Part shown: positions 183 to 5,919 of the stretch, piece by piece
How positions within the stretch are numbered: position 1 is the stretch's first letter
How the letters are laid out: each line of letters opens with the position of its first letter
From: Cellulophaga lytica DSM 7489
Lineage (GTDB): Bacteria > Bacteroidota > Bacteroidia > Flavobacteriales > Flavobacteriaceae
Direction: 5' to 3'
Assembly: GCF_000190595.1 (NCBI RefSeq)
Contig: NC_015167.1
Location: forward strand, 2,712,501 to 2,776,500
Length of the DNA stretch: 64,000 bases
Translations under genes and position numbers: made by a program
Notes under the pieces: generated by a model
Databases searched by the model: none
What the model saw: the letters and a program-made list of their open reading frames with translations, nothing else
What the model was told of the DNA's origin: nothing

Positions 183-2171
183 TTATTCTTCCTCATTAGA
201 AGTATTTTCATCTTCTTTATTAATGCTATTTTCTAATATATTAAGCTTTTTTAGTTTTGCTTTCCAAGTATTTAAAGATTCTTTTTGATTGTTAATATTC
301 TTTAAAACATTTTTAACTAAAGGGTTATCTTCAGATGCATTAGAGAAGAATTGTAAGTTATTTTCTAATTGACGAATTTCGTTTTTACTTTCATCAATTT
401 TTCTTCTAATAAACAATCTTTCTTTGTAAATAGCATTTTCATTATCACTAGCAGATAGCTTTTGTATTTTATCGCCATACTTTAGTAATTCTGACTCTTG
501 TTTACTAATATCTAATTTTCTAAAAATAGCATCTAGGATTGTATTGAATTTGTTATTAATGTTTTTCTTTTTAAATGGTACATGACCATATTTTTTCCAT
601 TCATTAATAAATCCTTTTATTTCAGCTAAATCTTTAGACCTGTCTCCAGATAATTGAAATTCTTTTAGTTTATTTAAGCAAGCTGTTTTATGTTCTAAAT
701 TTTCTAATTCTTCTTTACTCGATTGGTTTTTTAGAGCATGTAATCTATCAAAATAATGATTGCAAGCACTTTTAAATTCATTCCAAATTTTATCAGAATA
801 TTTTCTAGGAACGTGACCAATAGTTTTCCATTCGCCTTGTATACGTTTCATTTCCTTGGTAGCAATGTCCCAATCTTCACTATCTTTTGTTTTTAGTGCA
901 ATGTCTAATAGTGCTCTTTTTTTATCTAGATTGTCTTGTTGTTCCCTTTTTAGATTTTTGTAAAATGCATTTTTAGATTTGTTAAATGTTTTTACAGCAT
1001 CTTTAAAGGTGGTCCAAGTTTGCTCATTATATTTTTGAGGGACTTTTCCTGCTTTAAAAAACTCTTCTCTTAAGGCTTCTATTTGTTTTATTTGTTTTTG
1101 AAGCTCTTTATGATTGCTAGAAGTATTTTCTGCAATTTCTTTTATTTGAGAAATTATTTTATGCTTCTTTTCTAAGTTTACTTCATAAACTTTATCTAAT
1201 TCTTTATAATAGTCTTGCCTTCTTTGGTGCAATACTTTAGTTGCGTTACTAAATTCTTCCCATATCTGCTCTCTATGCTCTTTGCCAACAGGACCAATAT
1301 CTTCTTTCCAGATTTTATGCAAAGTCTGTAGTTCTCTAAAAGCTTTATTTAAATCGGGTTCATTGGCTAGTGCATTGGCACGTACTATTAATTTTAATTT
1401 TTCTTCTAAATTATGTTTAAAATCTAAATCCCTTAGCTCTCTATTTAAGTGTAAGAAATCGTAAAAAATTTCGATGTGATGATGGTAAGTTCTCCATACA
1501 TTATTGTATTCTGTTCTAGGTATAGGACCAGCATTACGCCAATTTTCTTGAAGATCTTTAAAGTTTTTGTATGTAGTATTAATGTCTTCTTCAACATTAA
1601 CCAAACCTTTTAGTTCTTCAATTATTTGTATGCGTTTTTCTAAGTTACTCTGTAAATTTTGTTCTAAATTTTTGTAGTAAGCATCTCTTTTTTCTCTGTA
1701 ATCTGAATACACTTCATTAAATTGTCTTTTAGTTACGGAGTTGTATCTAAAATCAATTTCATTACCTCCATTGGTGATAAATTCTTCCTTTTTATGTTCT
1801 AGAAATTCTTGAAACTTTAAATCAAATTCATACTTGATACCGTCAACATGCTTTTTAATAGCTTGTACTTTTTCATTTTTTACTAGACGCTGTAATTCGC
1901 CTACTAAATTTTCCATACTCATAGCATGGTAATCTAATAAAGGTATCTCATGTCTTTGATGATTGTCATTATCCTCTGCATCTTCGGCATTGGTTTCTTC
2001 AATTTCATCTAAGATTTCTTTATCACCTTGCTTGTCATTAGATGATATTTCTTCTGAATTATTACTTTCTATTTCAGTGCTTTTCTCTGAAACAGTTTTA
2101 GCATCAGTAGTTTCTGAATTTTCATCACCCCCTACATTGTTTTGTAGTTCTTCTTTGCTGTCTTCCAACAT
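183..2171 (-). CDS. DUF349 repeat protein
   Basis: Large acidic, highly charged cytoplasmic protein of about 662 aa built from tandem DUF349-type helical repeats. Each repeat carries the recurrent pattern W-x(n)-G-x-V/I-P followed by an aromatic- and Lys-rich helix (for example WRNAGPIPRTEYNNVW and WKTIGHVPRKYSDKIW). The first 100 residues or so are Glu/Asn/Ser-rich and probably disordered, and the C-terminus is also acidic. No signal peptide or catalytic motif is seen. The start is taken at 2171 (MLEDSKEEL) because the 20 residues added by the upstream ATG at 2231 are hydrophobic and aromatic and unlike the rest. DUF349 proteins are widespread in Bacteroidota, and I know no established biochemical role. 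It sits alone, 158 bp downstream of thrB on the same strand, with its own terminator. Confidence 0.85.
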   Translation of the reverse strand: MLEDSKEELQNNVGGDENSETTDAKTVSEKSTEIESNNSEEISSNDKQGDKEILDEIEETNAEDAEDNDNHQRHEIPLLDYHAMSMENLVGELQRLVKNEKVQAIKKHVDGIKYEFDLKFQEFLEHKKEEFITNGGNEIDFRYNSVTKRQFNEVYSDYREKRDAYYKNLEQNLQSNLEKRIQIIEELKGLVNVEEDINTTYKNFKDLQENWRNAGPIPRTEYNNVWRTYHHHIEIFYDFLHLNRELRDLDFKHNLEEKLKLIVRANALANEPDLNKAFRELQTLHKIWKEDIGPVGKEHREQIWEEFSNATKVLHQRRQDYYKELDKVYEVNLEKKHKIISQIKEIAENTSSNHKELQKQIKQIEALREEFFKAGKVPQKYNEQTWTTFKDAVKTFNKSKNAFYKNLKREQQDNLDKKRALLDIALKTKDSEDWDIATKEMKRIQGEWKTIGHVPRKYSDKIWNEFKSACNHYFDRLHALKNQSSKEELENLEHKTACLNKLKEFQLSGDRSKDLAEIKGFINEWKKYGHVPFKKKNINNKFNTILDAIFRKLDISKQESELLKYGDKIQKLSASDNENAIYKERLFIRRKIDESKNEIRQLENNLQFFSNASEDNPLVKNVLKNINNQKESLNTWKAKLKKLNILENSINKEDENTSNEEE

Positions 2172-2329
2172 AATTATGTGTATTTGGATTTCTTTATAAC
2201 GGTAATATACTAACAACCAAACAAACGGCAAAACTTAATATGTTTTTTTAGGAGTCTAATAATCAATATATAGTACCTTAATTTTATTTAGTAGACGAAA
2301 TAATTTATGGTTTGTTACAGGTGTTGTTT

Positions 2330-3256
2330 TTATGATATGGTTTTTATTCCTTCAGTATTTACTGTAGATACGTGTATGTCATAAGGAATACCTACTTTAT
2401 TATAAATATTTTGCATTGCCTGGGCTACTTTTTCTGCTGTTTCTTTGCCTTTGCTAAGGGCGTAAATAGAAGGCCCTGAACCCGAAATGCCACAGCCCAA
2501 TGCGCCAGCATTTAACGACGCAGATTTAACATTATCAAAAGCAGGAATTAGTATAGAGCGTATTGGTTCTATAATATGATCTTCTAGTGACCTGCTAATT
2601 AAGTCATAATCTTCTGTGTATAAACCAGCTATTAATCCACCAACATTACCCCATTGTTTTATTCCGTCCGCTAAAGAAATTGTTGTTTTTAATATTTTTC
2701 TAGAGTCAGATGTTTTTATCTCTATTTGTGGATGTATTACAGTAGCGTATAATTTTTTAGGAGTATTTATTTTTATAATATCTAAGGGACTATAACTGCG
2801 AACTAGGGTAAAGCCACCATATATAGCTGGTGCAACATTATCTGCATGTTGCACGCCACTAGCAAGTTCTTCTCCTTTCATTGCAAATTGTACAAGTTCT
2901 AAATTGCTAAAAGGTTCTCCTAATAATTTATTCATAGCGCAAACAGCACCAGTAGAACTAGCAGCACTACTGCCTATACCGCTTCCGGCTTTTATTTTCT
3001 TATATATTTCTATTTCAAAACCTCCTTCATAATCAGATGCAGATAGTAACGCCAATCCGGCTACGCCAGCTACATTTTTATGTGTTTGTAAAGGTAAATT
3101 TTGACCTTCAATTTTTGTAATAGTAATTCCTTTTTTGCTGGTTTTTTTAACAACCATTTCATCTCCAACATTGTCTAATGCAACACCTAGTACATCAAAA
3201 CCACATGAAATGTTTGCGATGGTAGCCGGACAAAATACTTTAATTTCGTTTTTCAT
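2330..3256 (-). CDS. thrB: Homoserine kinase
   Basis: ATP-dependent phosphorylation of L-homoserine to O-phosphohomoserine, the step before threonine synthase. The 308-aa length is normal for the family. It is a GHMP kinase: the Gly/Ser-rich phosphate loop AGSGIGSSAASSTGAVCA lies near residue 90, and a C-terminal GHMP motif CGISGSGPSIYAL near residue 255. It begins 2 nt after the thrA stop, so the two genes are almost certainly co-transcribed and translationally coupled. It would share the thrA leader region for regulation. No thrC (threonine synthase) follows, although thrABC is a common arrangement in the group; the next gene is the DUF349 protein. Confidence 0.95.
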   Translation of the reverse strand: MKNEIKVFCPATIANISCGFDVLGVALDNVGDEMVVKKTSKKGITITKIEGQNLPLQTHKNVAGVAGLALLSASDYEGGFEIEIYKKIKAGSGIGSSAASSTGAVCAMNKLLGEPFSNLELVQFAMKGEELASGVQHADNVAPAIYGGFTLVRSYSPLDIIKINTPKKLYATVIHPQIEIKTSDSRKILKTTISLADGIKQWGNVGGLIAGLYTEDYDLISRSLEDHIIEPIRSILIPAFDNVKSASLNAGALGCGISGSGPSIYALSKGKETAEKVAQAMQNIYNKVGIPYDIHVSTVNTEGIKTIS

Positions 3257-3258
3257 AC

Positions 3259-5703
3259 TTAAAAGTTTCCTATTCTTATTATGTCTGCAAAAATACCAGA
3301 GGCAGTTACGTCTGCGCCAGCACCTGCACCTTTTATAATTAATGGTTGGTTAGGGTATCTTTCTGTAAAAAATAATACAATATTGTCACTTCCTTCAAGG
3401 TTGTAAAAATCATGTCCTTTAGGGATATGTTGTAGACCAACGCTTGCTTTTCCGTCTTCAAATTGCGCTACATATTTTAGTTTAGCATCTTTATTTGCTG
3501 CTTCTGTATACATTTCTTGAAAAGAAGGTTCGAATTTTATTAGTGAAGCAAAAAAGTCATTATTATTTGTTGTTTGTAAACTTTCTTCAGGTAAAAATGA
3601 TTTGTTTGTGATTTCATCTATATCTAGTTTGTAACCACTTTCTCTAGCTAAAATTAAAATTTTACGAGCTACATCTATTCCGCTTAAATCTATTTTAGGG
3701 TCTGGTTCTGTATAGCCTTCTTCTTGCGCTTGTTTAACAATGTCATGAAATGTGGTTTTATTGCTAAAGTTATTAAATACAAAGTTTAAGCTACCAGAAA
3801 GTACGGCTTGTATTTTTAAAATTTTATCTCCTGAAGCTATTAGGTGCTTTAAGGTGTCTATTATAGGTAAACCTGCGCCTACATTGGTTTCAAATAAAAA
3901 TGGAGCATTGTATTTTTGAGCTAAATATTTTAGTCTACTGTAATTTGTGTATACAGATGAACACGCAATTTTGTTGCAAGTAACAACAGAAATACTGTTG
4001 CTTAAATAATCTGCATATGTATTAGAAACTACCTCGCTAGCTGTATTGTCTACAAAAATACTATTTCTGTAATTTAAGCTATTTACTTTGCTAAAGAATT
4101 GTTCTTTATTTGCTTTTTCTCCTTTAGAAAGTAATGATTCCCAGTTTTTAAGAGATATTCCGTCTTCATCAAAAAACATTGTTCTAGAGTTTGATATTCC
4201 AATTACTCTAACATTAAGTTTAAGGTTTTCTTTTAAATACTTTTTTTGTTGTTTAATTTGGTGAAGTAATTTGGATCCAACATTACCAACACCCATAATA
4301 AATAGGTTAAGTTGCTTAATGTTTTCTTCAAAGAATTTTTCATGAAGAGAGTTTAATGCTTTTTTTACATCAGCCTTGTCTATAACTGCAGATATATTGC
4401 GCTCTGATGAACCTTGTGCTATAACTCTAATATTTACATTGTTTTTACCAAGTGTACTAAACATTTTGCCACTTAAACCTTGGTGATTTTTCATAGAGTC
4501 TCCTACCAAGGCAATAATGGCTAAATCATTTTCTACTAAAACAGGTTTAATTTTTTTTAATGAAATTTCATACTCAAATTCATTATTAATGGCTTCTTCT
4601 GCAAGAGCCACATCATTTGCATCTATAGCAACACAAATAGAATGTTCTGATGATGCCTGAGTTATAAGTACAATGCTTATTTGAGCTAGAGAAAGTACTT
4701 CAAAAAAACGTTTAGAGATACCAGGAATACCTACCATTCCTGAACCCTCTAGAGAAATAAGACTTATGTTTTCTATATGGCTAATACCACGTACTGTTTT
4801 GCCGTTTTTATCTAAATTTTTAGTGATTGTAGTGCCAATAGCATCTGGGTTAAAAGTATTTTTAATGGCAATAGGAATCCCTTTACTTAATACAGGTTGT
4901 ATTGTAGGAGGATAAAGAACCTTTGCACCAAAATGAGATAGTTCCATAGCTTCCTGGTAAGAGATGTTTTCTATAGCTTTAGCTTGTTTAACTAGTTTAG
5001 GGTTAGCGGTATACATACCACTTACGTCTGTCCAGATTTCTAAACTTTTTGCATCTACTGCAGCAGCAATAATTGCTGCTGTATAGTCAGATCCACCACG
5101 CCCTAGTGTAGTAGAATCTCCTTTAATTGAAGAAGCTATAAAGCCACCAAGAACAGTAATTTGGTTGTTGTTATTGTTAAAGTAGTTTTGAATTAAACTG
5201 TTTGTTTCTTCAAAATTATAAATAGCAGCTTTACCGTAGTTTGTATTAGTTTTAAGTAGTTCTCTACTGTCTTTGTAGCTGGCGTTTAGGCCTTCCGCAA
5301 TAAAGTATTCACTAATAATGTATGATGATAATAGCTCACCATAGCTTACAATTTTATCTGATAATTTAGGTGTTATTTCGCCAATAAAAAAAGCACCTTC
5401 TAAAAGTGTTTCTAAAATGTTTAATTCACTTTTAACCTTACTAAGTACTTTACTTTGGTTAGAAACTGGGATTAATTCTTTTATGGTAGAAATATGTCTT
5501 TCTTCAATTTTTAAAAATACATTTTTGTATTCTTTATTATGAGTAGAAGCTAATTCTGCAGCATTTAAAAGCAGGTCTGTTACGCCACCAAAGGCAGACA
5601 CAACTACTGCAGTTTTATTTTTTGAGTTTTTAACTATATTTTTAACTAACTCTATGTTGTTGGCGTTGGCAACCGAAGTTCCGCCGAACTTTAATACTTT
5701 CAT
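3259..5703 (-). CDS. thrA: Bifunctional aspartate kinase / homoserine dehydrogenase
   Basis: Fusion enzyme of 814 aa, the usual length for ThrA. The N-terminal aspartokinase domain opens with KFGGTSVANANNI and has the GRGGSDYTA motif near residue 205. Two ACT-type regulatory segments follow at about 310-460 (for example ISLEGSGMVGIPGISKRFF). The homoserine dehydrogenase domain starts with the nucleotide-binding GVGNVGSKLL near residue 470 and includes NVGAGLPIIDTLK and the GYTEPDPKIDLSGIDVARK signature. It catalyses the first and third steps from aspartate toward threonine and methionine. The ATG at 5703 is the only good start. It is preceded by about 180 nt of leader holding a Thr/Ile-rich ORF and hairpins, and it is followed 2 nt later by thrB. 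Feedback by threonine through the ACT domains is family knowledge. Confidence 0.96.
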   Translation of the reverse strand: MKVLKFGGTSVANANNIELVKNIVKNSKNKTAVVVSAFGGVTDLLLNAAELASTHNKEYKNVFLKIEERHISTIKELIPVSNQSKVLSKVKSELNILETLLEGAFFIGEITPKLSDKIVSYGELLSSYIISEYFIAEGLNASYKDSRELLKTNTNYGKAAIYNFEETNSLIQNYFNNNNNQITVLGGFIASSIKGDSTTLGRGGSDYTAAIIAAAVDAKSLEIWTDVSGMYTANPKLVKQAKAIENISYQEAMELSHFGAKVLYPPTIQPVLSKGIPIAIKNTFNPDAIGTTITKNLDKNGKTVRGISHIENISLISLEGSGMVGIPGISKRFFEVLSLAQISIVLITQASSEHSICVAIDANDVALAEEAINNEFEYEISLKKIKPVLVENDLAIIALVGDSMKNHQGLSGKMFSTLGKNNVNIRVIAQGSSERNISAVIDKADVKKALNSLHEKFFEENIKQLNLFIMGVGNVGSKLLHQIKQQKKYLKENLKLNVRVIGISNSRTMFFDEDGISLKNWESLLSKGEKANKEQFFSKVNSLNYRNSIFVDNTASEVVSNTYADYLSNSISVVTCNKIACSSVYTNYSRLKYLAQKYNAPFLFETNVGAGLPIIDTLKHLIASGDKILKIQAVLSGSLNFVFNNFSNKTTFHDIVKQAQEEGYTEPDPKIDLSGIDVARKILILARESGYKLDIDEITNKSFLPEESLQTTNNNDFFASLIKFEPSFQEMYTEAANKDAKLKYVAQFEDGKASVGLQHIPKGHDFYNLEGSDNIVLFFTERYPNQPLIIKGAGAGADVTASGIFADIIRIGNF

Positions 5704-5731: not shown

Positions 5732-5796
5732 TGTATTGATAAAACAATACATATAACGGACGTGTATTATATAGCAGATTACCCCAAAGGGGTAAT
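5732..5796 (-). promoter_or_regulatory. Structured thr leader with alternative hairpins
   Basis: Between the leader ORF and thrA two clear inverted repeats are seen. One is ATTACCCC-aaa-GGGGTAAT at 5778-5796, which contains the leader stop codon. The other is TGTATTG-6 nt-CAATACA at 5732-5751. The segment 5746-5751 can instead pair with 5763-5768 (TGTATT on the plus strand), so two mutually exclusive foldings exist. No long T-run follows either stem on the minus strand, so a classic intrinsic terminator is not obvious. The switch may act on translation or through Rho. Confidence 0.5.
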
Positions 5797-5856
5797 TGTT
5801 GTGTTTGTGATAACACAAGTAAAAATTGTAGTAGAAAATGTAGTTACGTTGTCCAA
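5779..5856 (-). CDS. thrL: Thr/Ile-rich leader peptide of the thr operon
   Basis: A 25-codon ORF starting with TTG at 5856 and stopping with TAA at 5779-5781, upstream of thrA on the same strand. By my translation 9 of 25 residues are Thr and 3 are Ile, with Thr-Thr pairs at residues 5-6, 9-10 and 19-20 and the ending NTTITPLG. This composition is the hallmark of threonine/isoleucine attenuation leaders such as enterobacterial thrL. The ORF begins about 25 nt after the start site predicted from the promoter at 5889-5919, and its stop lies inside the hairpin 5778-5796. An in-frame TAA lies 4 codons upstream of the TTG, which bounds the ORF; ATT is the only other conceivable start. The TTG start and the lack of a U-run are the weak points. 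Confidence 0.75.
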   Translation of the reverse strand: MDNVTTFSTTIFTCVITNTTITPLG

Positions 5857-5871
5857 AATGTTTGTTTAAGC

Positions 5872-5905
5872 TTTGCTTATTAACAAGTCAAATGTAGTAC
5901 TTTTG
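5872..5905 (+). promoter_or_regulatory. Candidate promoter for the NAD(P)HX repair gene
   Basis: TTTG at 5872-5875 and TACTTTTG at 5898-5905 match the Bacteroidota -33/-7 consensus, with a 22-nt spacer that is slightly long. The predicted start is about 60 nt before the ATG at 5973. The -7 box is one base from the opposing thr -7 box. Confidence 0.5.
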
Positions 5906-5919
5906 TATTTTTAAACAAA
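5889..5919 (-). promoter_or_regulatory. Promoter of the thr operon
   Basis: Read leftward: TTTG (plus-strand CAAA 5916-5919), a 19-nt spacer, then TACATTTG (plus 5889-5896). This is an exact match to the Bacteroidota TTTG-N19-TAnnTTTG promoter. It places the transcript start near 5882, just ahead of the leader ORF. Confidence 0.7.

Follow-up and report, generated by a model that had tools for sequence, protein, structure and literature searches.

A leader peptide ending in a hairpin upstream of thrA in Cellulophaga lytica and other Bacteroidota probably senses threonine and isoleucine shortage

Introduction

The described systems closest to the locus reported here are the enterobacterial threonine leader thrL, the Bacteroid-trp leader (RF01692) and the Rho-dependent tnaC leader of Escherichia coli. 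In canonical amino-acid leaders a 1:2 hairpin forms at the regulatory codons and the stop codon of the leader peptide. The Bacteroidota lack Shine-Dalgarno signals and have unusual promoters. A transcriptome study of Flavobacterium psychrophilum published in 2021 reports that there are strong clues to attenuation by leader peptides ahead of amino-acid operons (PMC9723704), and leader control in the Flavobacteriaceae is therefore not new. The main text of that report mentions neither an element at thrA nor a type of hairpin or a box, and a listing in its supplementary table is possible. A description of the thrA element with its unusual anatomy was not found in the searchable literature, a scope outside which most subscription journals fall, and the element seems to be a version of this classic switch that has not been described before. 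Here we describe it from a stretch of 64,000 nucleotides (the window; positions 2,712,501 to 2,776,500 of NC_015167.1) of the marine bacterium Cellulophaga lytica DSM 7489, a genome of 3,765,936 bases whose nearest relatives among the named records are Maribacter and Arenibacter. From sequence comparison we take it to be an unannotated small gene together with a regulatory RNA.

Results

The initial annotation of the window had pointed to a minus-strand ORF of 25 codons with a TTG start, nine Thr codons, three Ile codons and three Thr-Thr pairs, preceded by an exact Bacteroidota promoter and ending inside a hairpin ahead of thrA, and each of these features was found in place (Table 1). The translation of the ORF is LDNVTTFSTTIFTCVITNTTITPLG, followed by its stop codon, and among the 550 ORFs with a length of 20-60 codons that the two strands of the window contain, it ranks first by Thr fraction and again by Thr+Ile fraction. 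The promoter consists of TTTG, 19 nt and then TACATTTG, and TAnnTTTG lies no further than 90 nt ahead of the leader start in 109/147 relatives that carry the leader (see below); after shuffling the figure is 14/147. The locus thus shows what is expected of an amino-acid attenuator, a run of codons for the regulated amino acids in a short ORF between a promoter and the first gene, and translation of this ORF probably senses shortage of Thr and Ile through the ribosome. The presumed target, thrA, starts 74 nt past the hairpin, and is followed after 2 nt by a gene that we take, on recognition of its sequence, to be thrB. The next gene (window 183-2231) encodes a DUF349-type protein as judged by eye; threonine synthase is not adjacent to thrAB, so thrC is presumably elsewhere in the genome. 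By eye, the other two aspartokinase genes of the genome (L002, L003) have no obvious leader.

Table 1. Features of the thrA leader region and its presumed target genes (positions in the window)
Feature	Position	Strand	Remarks
-33 promoter element TTTG	5916..5919	minus	exact match; aligned in the genus
-7 promoter element TACATTTG	5889..5896	minus	exact match
Putative Thr/Ile leader peptide ORF	5779..5856	minus	TTG start, 25 codons, 9 Thr, 3 Ile
P0 5' arm GGAC (tentative)	5851..5854	minus	at the leader start; pairs with GUCC 5758-5761
H1 stop-codon hairpin ATTACCCC-TTT-GGGGTAAT	5778..5796	minus	covarying stem across families
Box TATATAATAC	5764..5773	minus	divergent copy of the conserved YATATNATCC motif
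P0 3' arm GUCC (tentative)	5758..5761	minus	pairs with GGAC 5851-5854
P2 second hairpin GTATTG-TTTTAT-CAATAC	5733..5750	minus	self-fold and compensatory pairs
thrA (aspartokinase-homoserine dehydrogenase), presumed target	3259..5703	minus	814-aa ORF
thrB (homoserine kinase), presumed same operon	2330..3256	minus	308-aa ORF, 2 nt after thrA

Every one of the 18 genomes of the genus retains the promoter, the leader and the hairpin. Conservation of the Thr/Ile codons and the hairpin against diverging surroundings, on which the initial annotation had made its reading depend, holds in 18/18 congeners: Thr codons vary synonymously (ACT/ACA/ACC) or are exchanged with Ile, while neighbouring codons change freely. 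The TTG start of the C. lytica clade aligns with ATG in sister species, ATG being the usual start among the conserved leaders. For wider comparison we assembled 226 thrA upstream regions from the genus, the family, a sample of the phylum and 80 named genomes, with region L054 excluded, and applied a strict detector, which required that five or more of the last 14 codons specify Thr or Ile and that a stem of 5 bp or longer form at the stop codon. ORF and hairpin were found together in 147/226 regions, versus 1/1130 dinucleotide shuffles and 0/226 reverse complements. Conservation of the leader before thrA extends across the whole family and to several further families of the Bacteroidota, which include others of the same class and one (f23) of another class of the phylum. 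A Thr/Ile-rich short ORF is wholly absent from about a fifth of the thrA upstream regions. At five loci (L252, L261, L272, L273 and L288) a leaderless thrA directly follows a gene with a threonine dehydratase-like C-terminus, which suggests a different operon arrangement without control of this kind. In four other relatives (L103, L109, L137 and L285) the Thr-rich leader before thrA is combined with a classical U-run terminator in place of the stop-codon hairpin and the box described below, and the two designs have therefore replaced one another.

H1, a GC hairpin, spans the stop codon, with the UAA (5779-5781) in its 3' arm, and adjoins the Thr/Ile codon run. Across relatives the stop lies in the H1 loop, in the 3' arm or just past the stem, and in some species (L006, L007) the leader is translated past H1, so that the element does not require the stop at one precise place. 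Thr and Ile together make up a fraction of 0.72-0.99 of the codons at positions -5 to 0 counted from H1, about 0.5 of those at -8 to -6 and, for the most part, 0.2-0.35 of the codons before these. The H1 stem changes between lineages in a compensated manner (ACCCC/GGGGT, CAACCC/GGGTTG, ATCCGC/GCGGAT, CCCGG/CCGGG, ACGGG/CCCGT), including G-C to C-G swaps. Our first covariation counts for H1 were partly circular because the detector demands pairing; in a second analysis, which removed this circularity by choosing ORFs regardless of any hairpin, 81-84% of ORFs picked by Thr/Ile content alone had a hairpin at the stop, versus 4-5% after local shuffling. The YATATNATCC box, which scores 750 as a motif where shuffled sequences reach 456-490, usually lies 7-11 nt past the H1 core and is degenerate in the C. 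lytica clade. Downstream of it, P2 is variable in sequence and conserved in structure, with a mean z of -1.07 for self-folding of the downstream RNA and compensatory pairs in 25 relatives; in the window it ends about 30 nt upstream of the thrA start. A long-range pairing between the leader start and the region before P2 (P0, GGAC:GUCC) was considered as the key switch and rejected, its weak support (mean z -0.57 +/- 0.16) being confined to the C. lytica clade and Maribacter relatives. The GUCCY-hairpin motif, given for Bacteroidetes in Weinberg 2010 (PMC2864571), might overlap the GUCC-P2 portion in the C. lytica clade.

In the window no U-run follows H1, and the absence of a clear U-run terminator given in the initial annotation was therefore borne out. 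Of the 8 nt after H1 usually only 3-4 are T, in 121/142 cases the longest stretch of T among the first 12 nt measures 1-3, and a U-run terminator downstream of H1 was seen in only 1/147 H1 cases (L283). In shuffling tests no antiterminator partner for H1 was found upstream or downstream, the mean z values lying between -0.19 and +0.20 (3' arm of H1 with downstream RNA, +0.20; H1 with upstream RNA, -0.09); antiterminator pairings no better than shuffles were accordingly rejected. The same type of test was applied to the trp, his and ilv leaders of a panel of 15 genomes, that of C. lytica included, as positive controls. In 36/45 of these leaders there is a U-run terminator whose 5' arm pairs with upstream RNA, and the mean z was -1.44 for trp, -3.25 for his and -2.16 for ilv. 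In the genome of C. lytica the classical leaders, all outside the window, are those of trpE (MKITTNIWWWNNLRQTS), hisG (MRNKNTHHHHFTPCYQAS) and ilvD (MKNNIIIIVLVIIISLWG; L192, L183 and L156, respectively), each with its stop codon and a U-run terminator; that of trpE matches RF01692, as does the trp leader of a second genome (G128, L191). The thr element matched no Rfam family, permissive thresholds giving chance hits only, and the Bacteroid-trp covariance model had no match at the thr leaders. An intrinsic terminator, an antiterminator pairing and an Rfam match, as looked for in a classical four-segment attenuator, are thus all lacking at this element. The layout of thrL-like attenuation proposed in the initial annotation stands insofar as a Thr/Ile-sensing leader peptide precedes thrA, but not as to a U-run terminator and a conserved antiterminator to H1; its doubt about a thrL-style terminator was justified. 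The trp, his and ilv leaders of the panel mostly have both. The initial annotation had stressed differences in start codon and promoter; what sets the element apart is instead the stop-codon hairpin at the Thr run, the conserved box after it and the scarcity of G ahead of thrA.

Four hisG upstream regions of the distant family f23 (L172, L175, L182, L184) carry His-rich leaders. Their stop codon apparently falls within a small hairpin (three of the four have GUGC..GCAC), and the UTR after it is rich in pyrimidines, poor in G and devoid of a U-run terminator. These leaders apparently share the design of the thr leader, evolved at another operon.

Run on 30 chosen genomes, a covariance model (R1) of H1 plus the box gave 20 matches, of which 19 precede thrA. 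A larger scan of 296 Bacteroidota genomes gave 34 matches at E values up to 0.02, one per genome and 34/34 upstream of thrA, the model having been built partly from matched genomes, with G128, G141, G227, G296, G316 and G327 among those that did not contribute. The genome of C. lytica fell below the stricter filters and threshold of the larger scan and was matched at E 0.04 in the smaller. One model can thus find the element in many genomes. In one genome (G412, L330) the conserved leader and thrA are separated by a gene recognised by eye as GxxExxY-type. Only three places in the whole C. lytica genome contain the H1-like pattern CCCCN3-5GGGG. Because this pattern is rare and R1 has no copies at other genes, we rejected the idea that H1 and the box are a general terminator.

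The usual signature of Rho loading is C-rich, G-poor untranslated RNA. The RNA from H1 to thrA contains 18% C and 9% G (C/G 2.1), with C exceeding G in 144/147 cases, and the last 30 nt before thrA hold only 3.9% G; by comparison, the C/G ratio is 0.87-1.16 in UTRs that follow a U-run terminator of trp, his or ilv. The leader ORF itself is C-biased (1.95), in part because Thr codons contain C, and as a pointer to Rho the base bias is only suggestive. The Rho gene is present in C. lytica, and Rho is reported to be essential in Bacteroides thetaiotaomicron (PMC13269538). The locus therefore has sequence features expected of a Rho-type leader: no intrinsic terminator, C-rich and G-poor RNA after the leader stop, and an encoded Rho.

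Discussion

Our data strongly support the assignment of the ORF as a Thr/Ile-sensing regulatory leader peptide. The best reading, to which we give a probability of about 0.6, is a ribosome-mediated attenuator that would measure charged tRNA-Thr and tRNA-Ile and control thrA(B). With ample Thr and Ile, the ribosome would traverse the leader, stop at the codon within H1 and depart; H1 so freed would fold, RNA polymerase would pause at the box, 7-11 nt beyond the hairpin, and the exposed RNA, rich in C and poor in G, would let Rho, or the pause itself, terminate transcription ahead of thrA. With Thr or Ile scarce, the ribosome would stall in the Thr/Ile codons abutting H1 and hold it open, and polymerase would continue into thrA. 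H1 would in this scheme promote termination, the box would be a pause or release site and Rho the presumptive terminator, termination being probably Rho- or pause-dependent. The direction of the switch, shortage leading to read-through, we infer from the logic of biosynthetic operons. Given the footprint of a ribosome, one stalled in the last few Thr/Ile codons would overlap the 5' arm of H1. Counting against the attenuator reading, stalls at earlier Thr codons would leave H1 foldable, and to this are added the leaders read past H1 in L006 and L007, the relatives with the classical design, the leaderless fifth of thrA regions and the degenerate box in the C. lytica clade. A more tentative proposal, to which we would give slightly less than an even chance, is that the element may represent a distinct class of attenuator, free of antiterminator and U-run, in which a stalled ribosome holds a stop-codon hairpin open and a phylum-specific pause box and Rho terminate, in several families of Bacteroidota including one of another class, with the his leader of one distant family having apparently arrived at this design too.

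Several other explanations have to be weighed against this attenuator. H1 and the box could themselves be an unusual intrinsic terminator or terminal pause, controlled by the ribosome and independent of Rho, with P2 a second stop signal or the start of a stable thrA mRNA. The box is conserved in sequence at a distance from the hairpin that is about the release point of an intrinsic terminator, or the position of polymerase at hairpin-stabilised pauses, and the structure of P2 is conserved as well; however, the sequence after H1 is T-poor, with the short T runs given above, the H1-box model has no copies at other genes, unlike a general terminator, and the strong excess of C over G would require a separate cause. 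We consider this explanation unlikely, and yet the most credible of those discussed here beside the attenuator. A classical four-segment attenuator of thrL type, with H1 as the 1:2 pause hairpin and its antiterminator and terminator merely hard to see, has far less to recommend it. Relatives with clear downstream U-run terminators (the four named above) would fit it, as would Hymenobacter (L287) and a relative (L123) in which, by eye, the 3' arm of H1 can pair with GCAGCCCG ahead of a GGGCTTTTT hairpin. Against these stand the pairing of H1, no better than shuffles in a type of test that does detect the his, ilv and trp antiterminators, and the single downstream U-run terminator among the 147 H1 cases.

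It is equally improbable that the leader acts on translation or stability of the thrA mRNA, either by processing between H1 and P2 that depends on ribosome position or by structure at the thrA start. The conserved, single-stranded box flanked by two hairpins does resemble a processing site, and the scarcity of G in the 30 nt before thrA could be read in the same sense, but no conserved pairing over the thrA start was found, P2 ends well before it, and starts that are A-rich and unstructured are the rule in Flavobacterium (PMC6847099). Strongly disfavoured is the notion that the Thr-rich ORF is fortuitous or has another role without Thr/Ile sensing, as its Thr/Ile codons are conserved through synonymous exchanges, and it is located at thrA only, at frequencies (147/226 regions versus 1/1130 shuffles) far from those of shuffled sequence.

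If the attenuator reading is true, the Bacteroidota have dropped the textbook terminator/antiterminator switch at one gene and retained it for trp, his and ilv, and the replacement is a simpler hairpin occluded by the ribosome with a conserved box. The element offers a defined set of sequences for asking how translation is coupled to polymerase pausing and Rho in this phylum. With enterobacterial thrL (the Rfam Thr leader family) it shares a short Thr/Ile-rich leader directly before thrA and a stop near a hairpin; it differs in having no U-run terminator, antiterminator or Rfam match, and in its conserved box and G-poor region before thrA. With Bacteroid-trp, and with the his and ilv leaders found in the same genomes, it shares the phylum and the runs of regulated amino acids in leader peptides, whereas those leaders mostly have the U-run terminators and antiterminator pairing that the thr element does without. 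With the Rho-dependent tnaC leader of E. coli it would share a leader peptide, a decision made by ribosome position, the absence of a U-run and C-rich, G-poor RNA after the stop; in contrast to tnaC, the proposed signal of the thr element is uncharged tRNA-Thr or tRNA-Ile, its hairpin spans the stop codon, and its dependence on Rho is conjectural.
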